A stretch of 64,000 nt of DNA from Thermoanaerobacterium sp. RBIITD (lineage in GTDB: Bacteria > Bacillota > Thermoanaerobacteria > Thermoanaerobacterales > Thermoanaerobacteraceae): NCBI RefSeq assembly GCF_900205865.1, contig NZ_LT906662.1, positions 3,113,411-3,177,410 on the forward strand, given 5' to 3'. The notes beneath the pieces were generated by a model. The model worked only from the letters and a program-made list of their open reading frames with translations, did not search any database and was not told the origin of the DNA. This document shows, piece after piece, positions 7,221-17,303 of the stretch (position 1 is its first letter; every line of letters begins with the position of its first letter). Made by a program: the position numbers and the translations under genes.

Positions 7221-8402
7221 ATGAATAGGATTTATCTTGACAATGCAGCAACTACACCAATAAGATCGGAAGTTTTAAATTCTATGATGCCATTTTTTGA
7301 TAATCGTTTTGGTAATCCGTCAGCACTATACTCTCATGGACAAGAGGCTAAAAAGGCCATTGAAGAAGCTAGAGATAAGGTGGCGGTTGCGATTGGGGCT
7401 AGTGCTGATGAAATTTTTTTTACAAGTGGAGGCACTGAATCAGATAATTGGGCGCTCATAGGTGCTGCATATGCTCTTAAAAATAAAGGGAACCATATAA
7501 TAACCACTAGCATAGAACATCACGCTGTTTTGCATACGTGCCAATACCTTAAAAAGCAAGGCTTTGAGATAACTTATTTGCCTGTTGATGAGTATGGATT
7601 AGTAGATCCCAACGACTTAAAAGAAGCAATAAAAGATAATACAATACTTGTTTCTGTGATGTTCGCAAATAACGAGATTGGGACAATTGAGCCTATAGAA
7701 GATCTTGTCAAGGTGGTACATGAAAGAGGTGTGATGTTTCATACAGATGCAGTACAAGCAGTTGGCAATGTACCTATTGATTTAAAAAAACTGGATGTCG
7801 ATATGATGTCAATTTCGGCACATAAAATCTATGGTCCCAAAGGTATCGGTGCTCTTTATATTAAAAAAGGAATAAGAATTGATTCGTTAATACATGGTGG
7901 AGCCCAAGAAAGAAATAGAAGGGCAGGAACAGAAAATGTCGCCGGAATTGTTGGATTTGGTACAGCGATAGAACTTATTACTAAAAACATTGATGAACAC
8001 ATAAGGAAACTGACAAGGCTTAGAGATAAGCTTATAGATGGGATACTCAAAATACCATATACCCGCCTAAATGGACATCCAAATAAAAGGCTGCCTGGAA
8101 ATGTCAATGTTTCTTTTGAATTTGTTGATGGCGAATCGCTTATATTAAGTCTTGACATGGAAGGAATTTGCGTATCAAGTGGTTCTGCATGTACCGCAGG
8201 CAGCATTGATCCATCTCATGTATTACTAGCAATTGGCCTACCGCAAGAAATAGCACATGGTTCATTGCGACTAACTATAGGAGAAGAAAACACAGAAGAA
8301 GAAATCGATACGGTAATAAATAAACTGCCTAAAATAGTAGATAGATTGAGGCAGATGTCGCCACTTTTTGAAAGAGTTAAAGAGGAGAAAAAACTTGTAT
8401 AG
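7221..8402 (+). CDS. nifS: cysteine desulfurase (NifS/IscS type)
   Basis: 393 aa PLP enzyme that releases sulfur from L-cysteine, leaving alanine, and hands it as persulfide to Fe-S scaffolds and tRNA-thiolating enzymes. The PLP lysine is K202 in SAHKIYGPKG, the HTDAVQ motif is at about 174-179, and the catalytic Cys is C324 in SSGSACTAGS. The loop around it is long, as in the NifS/IscS (group I) class. It is in an operon with iscR. The usual next genes, nifU and mnmA, are not here; an accessory island follows instead. Confidence 0.95.
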   Translation: MNRIYLDNAATTPIRSEVLNSMMPFFDNRFGNPSALYSHGQEAKKAIEEARDKVAVAIGASADEIFFTSGGTESDNWALIGAAYALKNKGNHIITTSIEHHAVLHTCQYLKKQGFEITYLPVDEYGLVDPNDLKEAIKDNTILVSVMFANNEIGTIEPIEDLVKVVHERGVMFHTDAVQAVGNVPIDLKKLDVDMMSISAHKIYGPKGIGALYIKKGIRIDSLIHGGAQERNRRAGTENVAGIVGFGTAIELITKNIDEHIRKLTRLRDKLIDGILKIPYTRLNGHPNKRLPGNVNVSFEFVDGESLILSLDMEGICVSSGSACTAGSIDPSHVLLAIGLPQEIAHGSLRLTIGEENTEEEIDTVINKLPKIVDRLRQMSPLFERVKEEKKLV

Positions 8403-8409
8403 TCAATAT

Positions 8410-8446
8410 GTGATGGACCATTTCATGAATCCATCACTATATTTTT
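8410..8446 (+). terminator. terminator between convergent nifS and HTH-TPR gene
   Basis: GTGATGGA (8410-8417) pairs with TCCATCAC (8430-8437), followed by TATATTTTTT. The stem spans the stop codon of the convergent regulator (8423-8425), so the two transcription units share this end. Confidence 0.75.
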
Positions 8447-9712
8447 TCTCCCGACTTTATTTATAAGTTGATTAGATTTTGCCTTATAAGAAATATCATT
8501 TGTTATGCAGTATAAATCATCATAAAGCATCAATAAATCGCCATAATAGTATTGTGTTAAAAAATACTTTTCACATTTTTTAAGTAAATTATAAGCATTA
8601 TCAAAGTCATTATGCAAATATTTTATATGGCCCATCATAAATTCATAATTGTGTTTACTCATTTCAGAGAGTTGGTGGACTTCTATCTCACTTGAAATCT
8701 CCATTACTTTGTCATAATTGCCGATATTGAAATATAATATCATTTCCTGAATGAAAAAGCTTAAGTATAGCTTATTATATTTCTTGTATTCATTTTTACA
8801 TCTATTGACTATTTCAAAAGCCTTATCAAAATTACCGCTATATCGTAGGGAATTTATATAGTTTAGATGACATCTTGCCGCATCAAATTCATTTTCATAA
8901 TACTTAAACAACAATATAGCCTTTTTAATATATTTAATAGACTTTTCATAATAACCCATGTTATAGCAAGCTATGTTTAAAGACATATAAATGTGCGGCA
9001 TAGCATTTATATATATTAGATTATCATGGGTATTCACAAAACTTTCCAGCAAGTTTATTACCTTTTGAAATTGATTTGTCTTTAGATAAAGATAAGCTAG
9101 ATTATTATGTATAACAAAACTGATGGAATAGTTTAAAGAGTCAAGTGCGTATAAATATTTCTTAGCAAGTTCTAGATAGTTTATCCCCTTTTCATAATTC
9201 CGATTTTTAAGCATTATTTTAAATAATATGTTTAAAGCATGACAAAAATTATCTATATTCTGCTTTTGAATATCTTCCTTTGATTTAAGAAATAAATTAA
9301 CATATCTTTTTAGATATTTTAAGGCATCATTATATAAACCTATGTTAAAAAAAGACGCACCAGCATAATAATATTTATTGAAATCTTGTGTCTTTGAAAA
9401 TTCATCATGATTGTACTCAATTAATTTTACTATTTCATAATAATTCTGGTTATTAAATAAATCACTGATGATGAATGATGAGCTATCATCATTTTCTATT
9501 AATTCATCGTATTTAATGTCATTAATAAAATAACTTAAAGGCACTTTAAGCTTTTCAGATATGTGAATAAGCTGTTCTAAAGAAGGTAGGGCTTTGTTAT
9601 TCTCAATCCTGCTTAAAACAACTCTGTTCATAAAATTATCGCACAATTGACTTTGAGAAATTTTCTTTTGAAGTCTCAAAGCCTTTATTTTAGTACCTAT
9701 ATAAAGATCCAC
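8423..9712 (-). CDS. XRE-family HTH regulator with TPR domain (RRNPP/Qsr type)
   Basis: 429 aa. I use GTG at 9712 (MDLYIGTKIKAL) because AAGGTGG precedes it; the longer frame up to 9769 would read through an operator-like palindrome. An N-terminal Cro/C1 helix-turn-helix covers about residues 4-65 (GTKIKALRLQKKISQSQL, then VVLSRIENNKALPS). The rest is a series of TPR-like helical pairs rich in Tyr and Asn. This is the layout of RRNPP receptors, which bind a short re-imported peptide in the TPR domain. A divergent gene for a short secreted peptide lies 270 bases away. The gene is more AT-rich than the core genes around it. Confidence 0.8.
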   Translation of the reverse strand: MDLYIGTKIKALRLQKKISQSQLCDNFMNRVVLSRIENNKALPSLEQLIHISEKLKVPLSYFINDIKYDELIENDDSSSFIISDLFNNQNYYEIVKLIEYNHDEFSKTQDFNKYYYAGASFFNIGLYNDALKYLKRYVNLFLKSKEDIQKQNIDNFCHALNILFKIMLKNRNYEKGINYLELAKKYLYALDSLNYSISFVIHNNLAYLYLKTNQFQKVINLLESFVNTHDNLIYINAMPHIYMSLNIACYNMGYYEKSIKYIKKAILLFKYYENEFDAARCHLNYINSLRYSGNFDKAFEIVNRCKNEYKKYNKLYLSFFIQEMILYFNIGNYDKVMEISSEIEVHQLSEMSKHNYEFMMGHIKYLHNDFDNAYNLLKKCEKYFLTQYYYGDLLMLYDDLYCITNDISYKAKSNQLINKVGRKNIVMDS

Positions 9713-9725
9713 CAATAACACCACC

Positions 9726-9744
9726 TTGTAACTATCAGTTACAA
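9726..9744. promoter_or_regulatory. perfect inverted repeat, candidate regulator operator
   Basis: TTGTAACT-ATC-AGTTACAA is a perfect 8-bp inverted repeat with a 3-base centre, just upstream of the regulator's GTG and touching its ribosome site. Its size suits an XRE dimer. It may serve autoregulation, or form a hairpin in the mRNA leader. Confidence 0.55.
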
Positions 9745-9981
9745 TTTTATGTTTTATGATTAATGGCATGTAAAAAAATAAGAAAAAACGTAAGTTAGGG
9801 GAATATATTACATTGGTGAAATATTACAATTATTTTTTAATATTATACTACTTTTACAAAAAAATATAAAGATATTATAATAAAATCTAGAAAAACTAGT
9901 TCACGTACTTTAACAGTATAAATAAAACAACTTCATACTCTGCAAAAACAAATATTATACCAATTTTATGAGGTGGGTAAA

Positions 9982-10140
9982 ATGAGAAAAATATTTCTAA
10001 TTATTTTGACAATGTTAATAATATTAACAAACACATTAATAATTCCTCATAAATATATGGCATTTAAGCAAATTCCACAAAAATATCTGGTAGCTGATGA
10101 AGCAGGACCAGGAGTACTTATTGAAAAAGCATTAGGATAA
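9982..10140 (+). CDS. 52-aa secreted peptide precursor, probable RRNPP signal peptide or RiPP precursor
   Basis: ATG 9982 follows GAGGTGGG (9970-9977). Residues 1-23 are a Lys/Arg start plus a hydrophobic stretch (MRKIFLIILTMLIIL...), like a secretion signal. The hydrophilic end includes YLVADEAGPGVLIEKALG. It has no Cys. Gene order (HTH-TPR regulator divergent, then this, then a radical SAM fragment) supports two readings: a pro-pheromone for the regulator, or the substrate of the radical SAM enzyme. I favour the pheromone because of the hydrophobic leader and lack of Cys. No family name is recognised. Confidence 0.6.
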   Translation: MRKIFLIILTMLIILTNTLIIPHKYMAFKQIPQKYLVADEAGPGVLIEKALG

Positions 10141-10182: not shown

Positions 10183-10674
10183 ATGAAACCATCAAGATTT
10201 ACAATTGAACTTGATATTGATGGAGGTAAGTATTTATACAATTCGCTAAGTAATGCTTATGCGAAAGTTGATGAAGACCATTATGAAACATATTTAAAAA
10301 TTAAGAATAATAATCCGGATTATGATGAAAAAATGTCGATGGACTTATATAATGGTGGGTTTGTCATTAATGATAATGAAGATGAAATTGGATATATGAA
10401 CTTTTTCGAAAAAGTTATAAGATATGGAAGTAGTTCATTAGGCTTGACTATTGCCCCTATATTGCAATGTAATTTCAGATGCAAATATTGCTATGAAGCA
10501 CATGAAAATTCATTTATGTCTAATGATGTACAAAAATTATTAATTGAATTTGTTACTAAAAATATAAGTAGGTATAAAAATATTTCAGTCTCTTGGTATG
10601 GTGGTGAGCCATTATTAGCCTATCAGACCATTGTAAGCTTGTCTAAAGAATTGATAAATATGCATAGATATTAA
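10183..10674 (+). pseudogene. truncated radical SAM peptide-modifying enzyme
   Basis: 163 aa. Residues 1-75 look like the peptide-binding N-terminal region of SPASM-type peptide maturases. The CNFRCKYC iron-sulfur motif is at 96-103 and GGEP at 140-143. The frame then stops at 10672-10674, whereas full enzymes run past 400 aa with the rest of the barrel and a Cys-rich SPASM domain. I find no continuation in any frame before the next gene, so the 3' part was lost by deletion. It starts 42 bases after the small peptide gene. It is unlikely to be active. Confidence 0.7.
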
Positions 10675-10825
10675 TATCTAAAATAATATCGCATATTGTA
10701 TGGCAACTCAAAGATTAACTATTTTTTCAGGTACTCGAATAAATTCCGTATTTTTTTAAATTAATTTGTATTGAAATATTGATTAATAGTTTTTGAAACT
10801 AAAATTGAATAACGAGGTGAAATAT

Positions 10826-11644
10826 ATGTTTAAAAAACTTAATATTTTAATTTTTTTATACTTTATTTTTGAAATGGCTTTATATTTTTCTAAATTTATA
10901 ATGACATATTTGTTTGAAGGTATATACCATTTTTTTAATCTAAAAGATAATGATCCATTTCTTAGAATAAGTAGTAATTTAATTTATAATTATACTATAC
11001 AAATTCTTATGTTGTTTTTGGCGTTATATTTGCTAAAAAGGTTTAAATATACGAAATATATAAAGATATCTGTAAAGGCAATTATAAAACTAATTGCCTT
11101 TACAATATTACTATTTATATGTACTAAGTATGCACTAAGTATGTTCAGCAATAATTTTTTATGGACTGAGCTTAAATATGCTATTAAAGAATGGAGTAAA
11201 TTAGATTATATTGTCGCAATATTACAAGTAGCCTTATTTATGTTGGTTGCTTTAGCAGAAGAGTATTTATTTAGAATAATACTTTATTTAAAAATTCTTG
11301 AAATATCTAATTTTAAAAATAATACTCTAAAAACAATATTTAGTATAATATTAACAAATATATTATTTTCAATTGGACATCTTTCAATGCAAAATTATGA
11401 TTTTTATATGCTTTTACAAGTATTTATATCCGGTATTTACTTTAGTTATTTATTTTTAAGAACTAACAATATTTACTTAGCTTGCATAATGCATTTTAAT
11501 TACGATTTTCCGATTATGGCAATAGTCGATAAAAAATATTATTTCCAAATAGCTTCTTTAATAATTTCGGTTGTTTTAATAGAAGGATATTTTATCATTA
11601 AATATTATTATTTAAAATTATTTAATAAATGCGAACAGAGTTAA
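10826..11644 (+). CDS. CPBP-family intramembrane metalloprotease (copy 1)
   Basis: 272 aa with about seven or eight membrane segments. Start ATG 10826 follows CGAGGTG. The CPBP (Abi) motifs are present: EEYLFR at 145-150, FSIGH at 181-185 and HFNYD at 223-227. These give the two Glu, His and Asp/Asn needed for metal-dependent cleavage within membranes. CPBP proteins process prenylated or other peptides, and some give immunity to peptide bacteriocins. The next gene is a diverged copy with the same motif order. Beside a secreted-peptide gene, peptide maturation or immunity is the likely role, as an inference. Confidence 0.8.
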   Translation: MFKKLNILIFLYFIFEMALYFSKFIMTYLFEGIYHFFNLKDNDPFLRISSNLIYNYTIQILMLFLALYLLKRFKYTKYIKISVKAIIKLIAFTILLFICTKYALSMFSNNFLWTELKYAIKEWSKLDYIVAILQVALFMLVALAEEYLFRIILYLKILEISNFKNNTLKTIFSIILTNILFSIGHLSMQNYDFYMLLQVFISGIYFSYLFLRTNNIYLACIMHFNYDFPIMAIVDKKYYFQIASLIISVVLIEGYFIIKYYYLKLFNKCEQS

Positions 11645-11669
11645 ATTATTTTTGAACGGAAGATTTGAT

Positions 11670-12482
11670 ATGATAAAAGGAAAAGAATTACTGAAAATAA
11701 TTCTAATTATACTTGCTATTGTACTAGCATTATATCCAATTTTATATGGAATAGAAATTTTTATATTAAAAAGCAATAATCCAAATACAAAAACAATAGT
11801 GAATTATATTATACAGATTACATTATTAATCATTGCGATATATTTGTTAAAAAAATTTAATTTTATGAATTATGTAAAATTATCCTTAAAATCAATTCTT
11901 GAATTAACAGTTTATACCTTGTTATTACTGATATTAACAATACTATTATTAAATGTATTCCGGATAAGATATTATTTTATATGGAATACAGGGAAAAGCT
12001 ATGCAACATTAATTTTTCAAAATTTTTATTTTGTTTTTGTAGGGTTGGGCGAAGAATTATTATTTAGAGTAATTTTGTATTATAAAATTTTAGATACAAT
12101 TATACTAAAAAATAAAAAGCTTAGAATGATGATTGCTGTTATTATTACAAGTTTTTTATTTACAATTGCGCATATACCTGTATTAAGTGTTAAAAATATA
12201 GAAATATTTAGTACTTTAAATATTTTTATATGGGGTATATTTTTCAGTTATCTTTATTTAAGAACGAAGAACATATATATCGCAGCAATTGTACATTTCT
12301 TTACAGATGCTGGAATTATGATAGATTATACTGACGTATATTTTAGCAATATGCATTTAAACGTTGTTTTAACTACATTTATTTATATAATTACATCTGT
12401 TATAATAATTGAAATATACAATATTTGCAAACATTTTTACAATAAAAAAGTCTGCGGGAAAGAAAATTTCAATTTGAAATAA
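11670..12482 (+). CDS. CPBP-family intramembrane metalloprotease (copy 2)
   Basis: 270 aa, start ATG 11670 behind GGAAGA; the longer TTG start at 11652 lacks a ribosome site. Motifs: EELLFR at 128-133, FTIAH at 164-168 and HFFTD at 209-213. It shares hydrophobic layout and short identical pieces (YLRTKNIYIA versus FLRTNNIYLA) with copy 1, 25 bases upstream, so the two probably arose by tandem duplication followed by strong divergence. Likely substrate and role as for copy 1, but nothing fixes them. Confidence 0.78.
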   Translation: MIKGKELLKIILIILAIVLALYPILYGIEIFILKSNNPNTKTIVNYIIQITLLIIAIYLLKKFNFMNYVKLSLKSILELTVYTLLLLILTILLLNVFRIRYYFIWNTGKSYATLIFQNFYFVFVGLGEELLFRVILYYKILDTIILKNKKLRMMIAVIITSFLFTIAHIPVLSVKNIEIFSTLNIFIWGIFFSYLYLRTKNIYIAAIVHFFTDAGIMIDYTDVYFSNMHLNVVLTTFIYIITSVIIIEIYNICKHFYNKKVCGKENFNLK

Positions 12483-12741: not shown

Positions 12742-14029
12742 ATGAATCTCTCTATTTTTAAGAGAAAGAATTTTTTATTTCTTATTACTGGAAAATTTAT
12801 ATCTCTCCTTGGAAGTGAAATGCAAAATTTTGCATTGTCGTTGTACGTTTTAAAAATTACGGGATCTGCAACAAAATTTGCATCAGTATTGGCTATTACT
12901 TTAGTACCTCAAATAATATTTGGCAATATTGCAGGTGTCCTTGCCGACTGGTTTGATAGAAAAAAATTACTTATGATGTTAGATTTACTAAGCGCAGCAA
13001 TTGTTGCAATTTATGCTATCATTTTTAAAATGAATGGCGTTTTAACATTAACTCAAATTTATATTTTATCAGTTTTACTTTCGACTATTTCCTCAATGTT
13101 TAATCCTACAATAGGAGGGAGCAGTTATACCATCCATTGCAGAAGATGATGAATTAGCGGATGTTAATGGTATTAATACGATGTTTATGAATATAGCAAA
13201 TTTGATTTCACCTGTTATAGCTGGTGTTCTATTAGAAGTTTTTAATATATTCATAATATTGACAATTAATGCTATAAGTTTTCTTCTTTCATTTATGTGT
13301 GAGTCTATGTTAGAAATACAGAAAACAAATGATAAACCAGAAAAAATAAACCTAAATTCGTTTTTAAATGACTTCTTAACGGGTATTGATTTTATTAAAA
13401 GTAAAAGGCTAATTTTGAATATATTAATTATAGGAATAATTGTCAATTTCACATCAAATCCTATATTATCTGTAGGATTGACATTTATATCGAAACAAAT
13501 ATTAAAAATTACTGATTATCAATATGGAATTTTGCAATCTACATTTGCAATTTCTATGATCGCATCACCATTCATATCTAGTATAATTGCAAAAAAATAT
13601 AAATTAGGTAAAGTATTATTTTTAGATATATTTTCGGTTTCCATATTATATTTTTTAGTGTCATTTATAATTTCTCCTATCTATTTGCAGGGTTTTTCTT
13701 ACATTCTTAAACCATACATAAGCTTAATGATAATAATATTTTTTGTCGGATTAATTACATCCATTGGGAATATAGCTTTGACTACTATGTTGCAAATAGA
13801 AATACCTTTAAAATTGATGGGGAGAGTAATAGCGACGGTAAGTACTTGTTTAATGATAGTGACCCCATTAGGACAAATGATATTTGGGATTTTATTTGAC
13901 AAAATTCCCAGTTGGATAAATATCATTATATGTGCCTCTATAAATTTTGTTGTAATATTGTTTTTTAAAAATTATTTATTATATGGTGAGCAGGAACACT
14001 TTGTAACTACAAATGATGGAATAGAGTAA
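12742..14029 (+). pseudogene. frameshifted MFS efflux transporter (MFS_3-like)
   Basis: Two frames together encode one about 428-aa major facilitator protein: 12742-13149 (first five membrane segments, including the loop GVLADWFDRKK) and a second frame through 13181-14029. The break is a tandem GGAG-GGAG at 13114-13121; removing one GGAG restores a continuous reading (PTIGAVIPSIAEDDELADVNGINT). The type resembles macrolide or drug efflux proteins. It is either a recent 4-base duplication that killed the gene or a sequencing error. It is in the accessory island downstream of two CPBP genes. Confidence 0.8.
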
Positions 14030-14195: not shown

Positions 14196-15437
14196 ATGTC
14201 AATAAAAATAGTAAATAAAATACCAAGATATATTTTACCATATCCAGTTATATATTTTTTCGTCAATTTTATAAATGGACTTACTATACCAATTATAGCA
14301 ATCTACTATAGATATGTGGGTTTGAATCTATTTCAAATAGGACTTGTATCTACAATTTTTGAATTAAGCATTTTTATTTTCGAAATTCCGACTGGATTTA
14401 TTGCAGATAAAATAGGTAGACGATTTTCAATATTATTATCTTTCTTGAGTTTTTCTGTTAGCGGAATTTTATATTTTTCAATTAGAAATATTATTGGCAT
14501 AATGTGTGCTTCAATCATGCAAGGTATTGGGTATACATTTATTTCCGGGTCATTACAGGCATGGGCTATAGACACGTTAAAACAAAATGGAGACGACTCA
14601 TATATAAAAAGTACTATTGTATCGGGAACGCAAAGTAGAAGATTAGGCTCTCTATTAGGTAGTGTTATGGGTGGCTATTTAGGTATAAAGAATATAAATA
14701 TATTATGGTTTTTGTACATATTTTTAGGATTTGCAGCAATGGTATATTCTTATATTTTTGTTAGAGAAAAGAGAGAAAAGTTTCTTGATAATGGGGAAAA
14801 GTTTAACATTAAAAATTTGCTTCATATAGATGAAATTAGTAAGGTATTTATAGAAAAAGATAAGGTTATTTTTATTACAGCTATTCTGTTATTTATTATT
14901 TCTATCATATACGAATTTTCATTGTCACCAGTGGATGAATATTGGACAATATTATTTTCTGAAAAATTGAAAATAAATACTTTTATTATTGGCTTGATTA
15001 CAGCTATTTCTAATATCGTTTTAATAGTATTAGTAACACCAATAGTGAATTATTTAAGCAAAAGATTAAAAGATATAACTGCTTTTTTAGCCGTGACTAT
15101 TTTAATCATATTCTCTTTAGTATTATTAGCATCAGTCAAAATGGTATTAAATTCTATATTAGTATTTATCTTGTTTAGATTATTCACAGGTGTTTATGAA
15201 CCAATCATGGATTATTATCTAAATAGATTACTAAATGATCAATATAGGGCAACTATGTTATCGGTGTATAGTATGGCTGGTTCTATAGGGGAAATATTAA
15301 GTGGCATTTCAATAGGTACTATTGCGGAAAATAGAGGTATTAGTATAGCCTTTTATGCGGGAGCCGTGAGCCTGTTATTTGAATTAATTTTGTTTTTTGC
15401 AATAAATAAGATACGCAAATACGAATATTCTGGTTAA
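14196..15437 (+). CDS. MFS transporter
   Basis: 413 aa, start ATG 14196 after GAGGTGTG. About twelve membrane segments. The MFS loop between segments 2 and 3 is seen as GFIADKIGRRFS (about 70), typical of drug or metabolite exporters. There is no sign of damage, unlike the MFS gene just before it, to which it is only distantly similar. As the last gene of the peptide island it may export a peptide or give resistance, but the substrate cannot be told. Confidence 0.8.
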   Translation: MSIKIVNKIPRYILPYPVIYFFVNFINGLTIPIIAIYYRYVGLNLFQIGLVSTIFELSIFIFEIPTGFIADKIGRRFSILLSFLSFSVSGILYFSIRNIIGIMCASIMQGIGYTFISGSLQAWAIDTLKQNGDDSYIKSTIVSGTQSRRLGSLLGSVMGGYLGIKNINILWFLYIFLGFAAMVYSYIFVREKREKFLDNGEKFNIKNLLHIDEISKVFIEKDKVIFITAILLFIISIIYEFSLSPVDEYWTILFSEKLKINTFIIGLITAISNIVLIVLVTPIVNYLSKRLKDITAFLAVTILIIFSLVLLASVKMVLNSILVFILFRLFTGVYEPIMDYYLNRLLNDQYRATMLSVYSMAGSIGEILSGISIGTIAENRGISIAFYAGAVSLLFELILFFAINKIRKYEYSG

Positions 15438-15474
15438 ATTGGTGGCGGATGTATTGTTTATCAAATAGTACCCC

Positions 15475-15503
15475 AAAATACACTTTATAAAGTGTATTTT
15501 TTT
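15475..15503 (+). terminator. intrinsic terminator closing the accessory island
   Basis: The palindrome AAAATACACTTT-AT-AAAGTGTATTTT (15475-15500) is followed by more T residues. It separates the MFS gene from the PRC-barrel gene. Confidence 0.85.
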
Positions 15504-15555
15504 ATCTTTATAGGGCAAAATTAATACAAGAAAGAAATTTGAAGGGGGTATTATT

Positions 15556-16071
15556 GTGATTTTTGTAAAAGATATTATAGGTATGCCAATAATATCCTCA
15601 GAAGATGATAAGATAATAGGTTCTGCCAAAAATGTGCTATATGGCGACTTAAAAGACAAAATAATAGGTGTACTCATAGAAGAAGGTGGAATACTAAAAT
15701 CGCCAAAGATGGTCGAAAATAAAAATATAATAAGTATAAATAAACAGGTATATATAGATAATAAAGACGCTATAAAAGATTTAGATGTGAAATCTATAAA
15801 TGATGTAGAAAATAGTAGCAACGACATAATAAATAAGGATGTTTACGATAATAAGGGCAACTATTGGGGAAAGATATATGACTTGATATTAGATGAAAAA
15901 AAGCGAATAATACTTTATGCTGAAATTAGCAAGGGATTTTCATCTGACCTATTTAAAGGGCTAAGAATTGTCAACATAGAGTGTATTGAAAAATTTGATG
16001 GAAAAATAATCATCAAAGATGGGGCAACGTTTTTTACGAGAGGTGGACTTAATAATCTGATTAAAGTTTAG
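15556..16071 (+). CDS. PRC-barrel domain protein
   Basis: 171 aa from GTG 15556, behind AAGGGGG. Two PRC-barrel-like repeats are visible: residues about 1-75 (IIGMPIISSEDDKIIGSAKN...) and about 90-165 (DVYDNKGNYWGKIYDLILD...). PRC barrels are small beta domains found in RimM and photosynthetic proteins; in clostridia this type is commonly found before alaS. Its exact role is unknown. The following small gene starts 16 bases downstream, so they are co-transcribed. Confidence 0.75.
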   Translation: MIFVKDIIGMPIISSEDDKIIGSAKNVLYGDLKDKIIGVLIEEGGILKSPKMVENKNIISINKQVYIDNKDAIKDLDVKSINDVENSSNDIINKDVYDNKGNYWGKIYDLILDEKKRIILYAEISKGFSSDLFKGLRIVNIECIEKFDGKIIIKDGATFFTRGGLNNLIKV

Positions 16072-16087
16072 AAATAGGAGGGTTAAA

Positions 16088-16234
16088 ATGGAAGACAAGG
16101 GCAAATATATAAAGGGCTTTTTAGCTGGTGCCGCGTTGACAGCATTTATTATACCGAAAATCAATTCGAAAAAGGCAATGCAAATGATTCAGACGGGTTT
16201 ATCCAAGATTGCTCATAAAGCAAATAAAATGTAA
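16088..16234 (+). CDS. 48-aa small membrane-associated protein
   Basis: ATG 16088 follows AGGAGG. The protein is basic with one hydrophobic stretch (KGFLAGAALTAFIIPKI, about 9-25) and a basic amphipathic end. It resembles the short YtxH-like proteins found between PRC-barrel and AI-2E permease genes, but it is too short to name. Codon use and spacing support a real gene. Its stop lies just inside the terminator hairpin that follows. Confidence 0.6.
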   Translation: MEDKGKYIKGFLAGAALTAFIIPKINSKKAMQMIQTGLSKIAHKANKM

Positions 16235-16257
16235 AAGGGCTTTTAGCCCTTTTATTT
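16233..16257 (+). terminator. intrinsic terminator
   Basis: AAAAGGGCT (16233-16241) pairs with AGCCCTTTT (16245-16253), loop TTT, then ATTT. It may reduce but not stop transcription into the permease gene, which has no clear promoter of its own. Confidence 0.8.
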
Positions 16258-16271
16258 AAAAGGTGTTTTAT

Positions 16272-17303
16272 ATGAGAATAAACAAAAAATATATTACATA
16301 TATCATAGCAATAATTATTGTAACTCTTTTTTTGTATTTTGCATTTAGAAATATAGATAAAATCAAAGAAATATTGTTCCCAATTTTTATTTCTATTTTG
16401 ATTGCATACCTTATAAATCCTTTTGTATCATTTTTTGAAGATAAAGGCATAAAAAGGGTGCAATCGATAGTAATTGTATATTTTTTGTTGTTATGTATTA
16501 TAGCATTAACTGTTTTATTTATATTTCCAATAATAACAAATGAAATGTCAAGTCTTTTTAAAATGCTTCCCGGATATATTAATGATCTAACATATAAAAT
16601 TAATAATATCAAAAATAATTATTTAGCATATCTGCCAAAAGAATTTAGCACTGTATTAGTAAAACGTACTAGTATGTTCAATAAAGAAATTGCATCTATG
16701 ATAGACGTATCAATACAAAGTATTATTTCACTGACGGGTCATATATTAAATTTGATATTAACACCTATCATTACATTTTATCTATTAAAGGATAAGGATA
16801 TATTAAAAAGTGAGATAAAAGAGATAATTCCTGAGAAGATGAGAGGCAGATTTTCAAAGATATTAAAAGATTTAGACAGTGTTATGAGTAAATACATAAG
16901 AGGTCAAATATACATTTCTATTGTTGTAACTATCCTGACATCAATAGGACTTATGATAATAAAAGTAAAATATTCAGTGTTGATAGGTATTTTAGCTGGA
17001 ATTTTAAATATAATACCATATTTTGGACCAATACTGGGATCTATTCCTGCCATTATGATGGGACTTATTGACTCTTTGTACAAAGGTGTTTGGGCATTTA
17101 TCATATTTTTCCTAGTACAGCAAATTGAAAGCGCATTTTTTGCGCCCAAAATCATGAGCGATAGCGTAGATCTGCATCCTATAACTGTAATAGTTGCACT
17201 TTTATTTGGAGAACAATTTTTTGGGATATGGGGGATGCTTTTGTCTGTTCCTGTTGTGGCTATGATAAAAGTTATATTAAAAGACGTTTTTATCGAGGTA
17301 TAA
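16272..17303 (+). CDS. AI-2E-family (UPF0118) transporter
   Basis: 343 aa, start ATG 16272 after AAAAGGTG. About eight membrane segments with the long hydrophilic region (about 95-150) between the third and fourth that marks the AI-2E/TqsA/PerM family. Conserved pieces include GILAGILNIIPYFGPILG near 240-257 and EQFFGIWGMLLSVPV near 318-332. Members have been linked to autoinducer export and Na+/H+ or Na+/Li+ antiport, so the cargo is uncertain. It lies before alaS, a common clostridial order. Confidence 0.85.
   Translation: MRINKKYITYIIAIIIVTLFLYFAFRNIDKIKEILFPIFISILIAYLINPFVSFFEDKGIKRVQSIVIVYFLLLCIIALTVLFIFPIITNEMSSLFKMLPGYINDLTYKINNIKNNYLAYLPKEFSTVLVKRTSMFNKEIASMIDVSIQSIISLTGHILNLILTPIITFYLLKDKDILKSEIKEIIPEKMRGRFSKILKDLDSVMSKYIRGQIYISIVVTILTSIGLMIIKVKYSVLIGILAGILNIIPYFGPILGSIPAIMMGLIDSLYKGVWAFIIFFLVQQIESAFFAPKIMSDSVDLHPITVIVALLFGEQFFGIWGMLLSVPVVAMIKVILKDVFIEV

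Follow-up and report, generated by a model that had tools for sequence, protein, structure and literature searches.

PlcR/PapR of the Bacillus cereus group combines an HTH-TPR receptor, for which the PlcR box has the consensus TATGNAWWWWTNCATA, with a pro-peptide of about 50 aa (PapR), similar in length to the pro-peptide described here. More generally, five criteria for systems of the RRNPP type are set out in the accessible text of PMC10075063: a pro-peptide of 10–100 aa, its secretion by Sec, a receptor of 250–500 aa, TPRs in that receptor, and the position of the two genes as direct neighbours. Qsr/Qsp of Clostridium acetobutylicum has HTH-TPR receptors beside pro-peptides of 39–50 aa, with qspB located downstream of qsrB and with a Pro and a Trp that the Qsp peptides share close to their C-terminus, according to the available part of PMC7376267. 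RRNPP control of RiPP clusters is already known, as far as the accessible parts of the streptococcal reports go: TprA/PhrA and TprA2/PhrA2 of Streptococcus pneumoniae place an RRNPP regulator on the strand opposite a small pro-peptide gene, with RiPP (lantibiotic) genes after it and with signalling between strains shown (PMC5436883), while Rgg/SHP quorum sensing precedes radical-SAM RiPP (RaS-RiPP) operons (PMC13361665), the SHPs being short hydrophobic peptides exported by PptAB (PMC10075063). Receptor-only "eavesdroppers" have already been proposed as well, in the part of PMC9765709 available to us. Our literature search found no RRNPP report for Thermoanaerobacter(ium), although three papers bring Thermoanaerobacter together with radical SAM and RiPP, and the families given in the accessible main text for 196 RRNPP-linked gene clusters contain none of a Thermoanaerobacter type (PMC10075063).

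We analysed a 64,000-nucleotide stretch of DNA from Thermoanaerobacterium sp. RBIITD (referred to as the window), in which a predicted receptor gene (8423..9715, minus strand) and a small pro-peptide gene (9982..10140, plus strand) are divergent direct neighbours, 266 nt apart when counted from the receptor start at 9715. Set against the five RRNPP criteria, the pro-peptide has 52 aa, the receptor has 430 or 448 aa depending on the start codon used and carries TPR_14, and the two genes are divergent neighbours here as well as at loci L056 and L058; for Sec secretion, the pro-peptide is leader-like by hydropathy and basic start only. Sequence comparison demonstrates the pairing, a shared operator-promoter module, the homology of the peptides and the decay of the genes that follow. 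With a probability that we put at roughly 0.7, it points to an RRNPP-type quorum-sensing pair in which the peptide-bound receptor would activate the peptide promoter via a palindrome, and of which the ancestral RiPP target has decayed.

The original prediction of an HTH-TPR receptor divergent from a short gene was borne out, as the receptor contains HTH_3 (E 9e-10) and TPR_14, both above the Pfam cut-off (other TPR models fall below their own), and the small ORF is exactly 52 aa long. Its further proposal of an RRNPP receptor/pro-peptide pair agrees with the homologous pairs at L056 and L058 in genome G012, where receptors of the same family (55% and 62% identity, respectively) stand divergent to a small homologous gene that encodes a leader, and the palindrome lies between the two; at L058 the outer bases of the palindrome are changed and the receptor itself is broken. 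The start codon had been placed at ATG 9769 (ORF 8423-9769, minus strand, 448 aa). TTG 9715, giving 430 aa, appears to be the likelier start because AAGGTGG lies just 5' of it, no ribosome site precedes ATG 9769, and relatives from the g3 group of genomes (our guess is a Thermoanaerobacter-like genus) start at the matching residue; the N-terminus from TTG 9715 is common to all five aligned receptors. A profile of five receptor relatives, searched against solved structures, had PlcR (2qfc, E 3.8e-8, residues 5-156) as its best RRNPP regulator, in a match covering mostly the HTH and the first TPRs, and the HTH of ComR and generic TPR proteins were also among the matches. The single-sequence structure model was weak (pLDDT 60.7, <50 in the HTH part), and mostly generic TPR proteins came up in the Foldseek and VIA-align lists obtained with it; RapF, RapI and a phage Rap ranked further down, and PlcR was absent. 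A mobile-element origin of the receptor was considered and dropped, no relative having been found at the thresholds used in viral contigs, phages or plasmids, where near relatives may be missing; a receptor profile search of genome contigs gave no confirmed relative. The receptor gene is preceded in the window by a cysteine desulfurase gene (7221-8402, plus strand).

The pro-peptide gene has a ribosome-binding-site-like GAGGTGG (9970..9976, plus strand) five bases 5' of its ATG, and its product carries a leader and the core YLVADE near the C-terminal part, with neither tryptophan nor Cys. As to the secretion-type leader that had been proposed for it, the product begins with basic residues and contains a stretch of strong hydrophobicity, a combination seen in this one alone among the 162 ATG-initiated ORFs of 30–80 aa in the window, by a leader criterion (hydropathy plus basic start) of our own. 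The pro-peptide has no Pfam or NCBIfam match, and congeners carry the operator without the small ORF, as might be expected of a chance frame without a product. Such a frame is nevertheless most improbable, given the recurrent linkage of operator and peptide and the match obtained with a profile from which the window peptide was left out. Built from nine g3 pro-peptides (several near-identical, found beside the palindrome or by the two-row family profile A3), this profile ranked the window pro-peptide first among 822 six-frame segments of the window, with an E-value of 2.3e-5 against 0.053 for the second. With most of the leader removed, the window peptide tail outscored all 5000 shuffles against 6/9 relatives; for the other three, 3, 5 and 13 of 5000 shuffles reached its score. 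With profile A3, the window peptide was not recovered at E<=10. A search of 61 genomes with the window peptide gave G013, G036, G017, G003 and G018 as the best five non-self genomes. Reciprocal matches identify the peptides of G013, G017 and G018 as belonging to the family; the G036 match, located inside a long frame, and the G003 match do not belong to it. Six aligned pro-peptides have in common a hydrophobic leader and the core Y-[LMF]-[VLI]-A-[DEN]-E with V following; one g3 relative (L226) reads MRRIIVLLIIVISLLGTLAYVNIVPAYMKDKKVVRQYLVAEEREPRVHGDINNPWGG.

Between the two genes lies a perfect 19-bp palindrome, TTGTAACTATCAGTTACAA (9726..9744), a putative receptor operator. By itself it is not remarkable and could be due to chance: in simulations, ~21% of intergenic sequences with the same composition contain an 8-bp inverted repeat that is perfect and has a loop of 0–8, and the window contains five 8+3+8 repeats against 2.6 expected. 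What is remarkable is its recurrence, the motif TTGTAACNNNNNGTTACAA being present at 25 sites in 14/24 genomes of the order and the reversed control at 0 in 24. A family pro-peptide is found near 15 of the 21 g3 palindromes (14 at E<1e-4, one at 0.0037), mostly starting 172–180 nt away, and the six other g3 sites are without a clear peptide; the 21 include 20 exact copies and one altered copy with changed outer bases that was added by hand (L058 8375), and the linkage is partly circular because the count takes in training loci and recent copies. The exact palindrome occurs once in the window genome, and its relaxed forms are not enriched there (27 vs 49 in the control), so the idea of a wider regulon in this genome was dropped. 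At L219:7464-7649 and at L220 (G014, G017) the palindrome is fused to a pro-peptide frame with the leader start missing; these are probably decayed copies.

The inverted repeat had been described as sitting at the receptor start. It is exact and lies ~10 bases upstream of that start, but the spacing that is kept constant is the one to the peptide promoter. Palindrome and receptor start are separated by differing distances (~10 nt in the window, 199 at L056, 114 at L058), whereas a TTTTAC box follows after a gap of 107 nt at all five sites of the window genus (sites that owe their similarity to common ancestry) and after one of 108 nt at 11 g3 sites, out of the 15 among 21 that have a peptide match <0.01; of the rest, one has a gap of 117, one has the box at 30 in a fused copy, and two have no box. 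This constancy ties the palindrome to the peptide promoter. In the window, the region's best promoter-like site starts with this box; it reads TTTACA-17-TATAAT (9853..9881, plus strand) and is a putative peptide-operon promoter with 11/12 consensus matches, such a match being weak alone (14 promoter-like sites found vs 10.2 in shuffles).

A site >100 nt upstream would suit activation from a distance more than occlusion. The same pair could still work with the opposite sign, with the free receptor repressing the peptide operon at the palindrome until the peptide releases it, as in the pneumococcal systems: TprA2/PhrA2 is likewise encoded on opposite strands ahead of a lantibiotic cluster, with PhrA2 relieving the inhibition exerted by TprA, according to the accessible text of PMC5436883. 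The palindrome in our case lies upstream of the promoter box, not over it, and we regard repression as possible, with the balance tilting against it. We prefer activation from upstream because the 107–108 nt gap between palindrome and promoter box is fixed in two genera.

The first reading of the locus overlooked its RiPP-cluster context. The pro-peptide gene ends 42 nt upstream of the stump of a Clo7bot-like radical SAM/SPASM maturase (10183..10674, plus strand, 163 aa), which matches TIGR04334 positions 3-165 of 440 with 119 bits and does not reach the curated cut-off of 600 bits. The stump is 89% identical to an enzyme of G005 (L257), 37–40% to full-length g3 homologues and 37% to the start of the 441-aa enzyme of L224. 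In the latter locus (G018) the palindrome and the peptide are followed by this radical SAM/SPASM enzyme (TIGR04334 is its best match, at 393 bits, below the 600-bit cut-off), a small Cys-rich ORF and S41-type proteases; at L257 the radical SAM enzyme is broken in two frames, and a Cys-rich small ORF and CPBP genes come after it. Compared with L257, the window DNA is 94% identical up to ~10624 and 73% from ~10660 into the CPBP gene, and the simplest reading is that a deletion carried away the precursor together with the remainder of the maturase; the window now lacks any Cys-rich precursor. The stump is followed on the plus strand by genes for two CPBP (Rce1-like) intramembrane proteases (10793..11644, PF02517 E 2.9e-14, and 11652..12482, E 1.4e-17), by a gene assigned through Pfam to an MFS exporter and split in two frames (12742..14029, as 12742-13149 and 13181-14029) of which G001, G003 and G007 have intact 427-aa copies, and by a second MFS gene beyond it. 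For the CPBP proteases, a role in processing the peptide or in immunity to the lost product is conceivable.

A position next to a radical SAM stump, and in g3 upstream of its full-length homologues, would also suit a 52-aa peptide that is itself the RiPP precursor, that is, the substrate of the adjoining enzyme and not a signal. We consider this very unlikely: the peptide has no Cys, only a stump of the maturase is left in the window, and at L056 the peptide family is found before a different, unrelated radical SAM enzyme that has a Cys-containing small ORF of its own, and at L058 beside a receptor. Separate Cys-rich small ORFs accompany the maturases, and the precursor reading was set behind that of a signal because of such Cys-containing ORFs in relatives; the Cys-rich ORFs tested gave no Pfam or NCBIfam match. 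Two short Cys-containing ORFs of G012, L056:16417-16506 and L057:2282-2398, lie directly upstream of radical SAM genes, are without Pfam or NCBIfam match and are likely RiPP precursors. In G005, a 47-aa leader-bearing ORF with a good ribosome site (L257:7378-7521, minus strand) occupies the pro-peptide's place upstream of the radical SAM gene; its sequence is unrelated to the window pro-peptide, no palindrome stands before it, and it perhaps represents another signal family.

Signal and receptor are unevenly distributed among relatives. Within the window genus the family peptide was found in 1/9 genomes, namely the window genome, the next-best match (E 0.02) being inside a longer frame. In G001, G003, G004 and G007 the conserved operator-to-promoter stretch runs straight into the first CPBP gene, with an identical junction and no peptide; G005, also taken into this alignment, did not align over the stretch and has no palindrome. 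An intact receptor is present in G000, G001, G003 and G007; G004 and G005 have broken ones, G002 and G006 only remnants, and the receptor of G008 falls below threshold. The dN/dS of the receptor is 0.15–0.16 between the window and G001, G003 and G007, and 0.11–0.18 among those three, indicating, insofar as the common junction can show it, that the receptor stayed constrained after peptide loss. Of the 10 g3 genomes, 8 contain peptides at E<1e-10, but full-length open receptors are confined to G012 and G015. The dS between the window and G007 is 0.069 for the first CPBP gene, against 0.49 for the receptor and 0.77 for NifS, which points to between-species exchange of the downstream block; G003 carries a 58% version of this CPBP protein. 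In G004, transposase-like genes (L059:11188-13412 and 15401-16660) interrupt the second CPBP gene and the MFS gene of the same block.

Congeners that keep the operator together with the receptor or its remains, and no peptide, suggest that the receptor may work without the peptide. It could then control the CPBP/MFS genes as an HTH-TPR regulator of the ordinary kind, the small gene of the window being a relic that is no longer needed, a reading that would fit the congeners with constrained receptor, operator and CPBP/MFS genes as well as the decayed product genes of the window. We think this unlikely, given that the frame, start and ribosome site of the window pro-peptide are intact and the family core is kept.

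For the signalling pair that we favour, we infer the steps of export, processing, import, binding and activation as follows. The 52-aa pro-peptide would be exported via its leader, trimmed to a short peptide from about the last 18 residues (the YLVADEAGPGVLIEKALG region), and re-imported by an oligopeptide permease, the window genome having five SBP_bac_5 matches (predicted oligopeptide-binding proteins). The TPR part of the receptor would bind the peptide and the receptor would act at palindrome 9726-9744, so that the peptide-bound form activates the peptide promoter from upstream in a PlcR-like positive feedback; the palindrome, being beside the receptor start, may also limit receptor synthesis. 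The ancestral target was probably a Clo7bot-like radical-SAM RiPP cluster located after the peptide. Reduction of the maturase to a stump and absence of a Cys-rich precursor suggest that the genes now driven by the switch may be those for the peptide, both CPBP proteases and the damaged exporter.

A tentative and rather doubtful extension is that the conversation has been split, with g3 keeping the signal, operator and RiPP cassettes largely without full-length receptors and the window genus keeping a constrained receptor and operator without the signal. If so, signal-less strains would listen for a peptide made by others and respond by turning on an exporter and proteases of an immunity-like kind in place of making a product, and the window would represent a rare strain that still talks and listens, with the product dropped. 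Receptor-only, signal-only and complete genomes coexist, making listening without talking testable in natural strains. The module of palindrome, 107–108 nt and TTTTAC box is readable and linked to radical-SAM RiPP clusters, and offers a direct test for inducing silent peptide clusters.

Among the systems described, the pair in the window departs from PlcR/PapR, with which it shares an HTH-TPR receptor, in lying in a RiPP context, and the palindrome TTGTAACTNNNAGTTACAA, compared by eye with the PlcR-box consensus, does not match it. The Qsr/Qsp-type likeness that had been suggested was not upheld: the pro-peptide gene of the window is divergent, and the peptide, being without Trp, is not a Qsp member by the features given in the available part of PMC7376267. 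In common with Rgg/SHP there is probable RRNPP quorum sensing before radical-SAM RiPP genes, but our family has a pro-peptide of 52–58 aa, a Sec-like leader and a Clo7bot-like maturase. TprA/PhrA is the nearest arrangement found; as described in the accessible text, it differs in acting by relief of repression and in its lanthipeptide genes, whereas the window family has an operator 107–108 nt upstream and clusters of the radical-SAM type. What is new here, as judged from the genomes compared, is the receptor/pro-peptide family itself, whose operator-promoter module is clear and in which signal and receptor have been lost in a patchy way.
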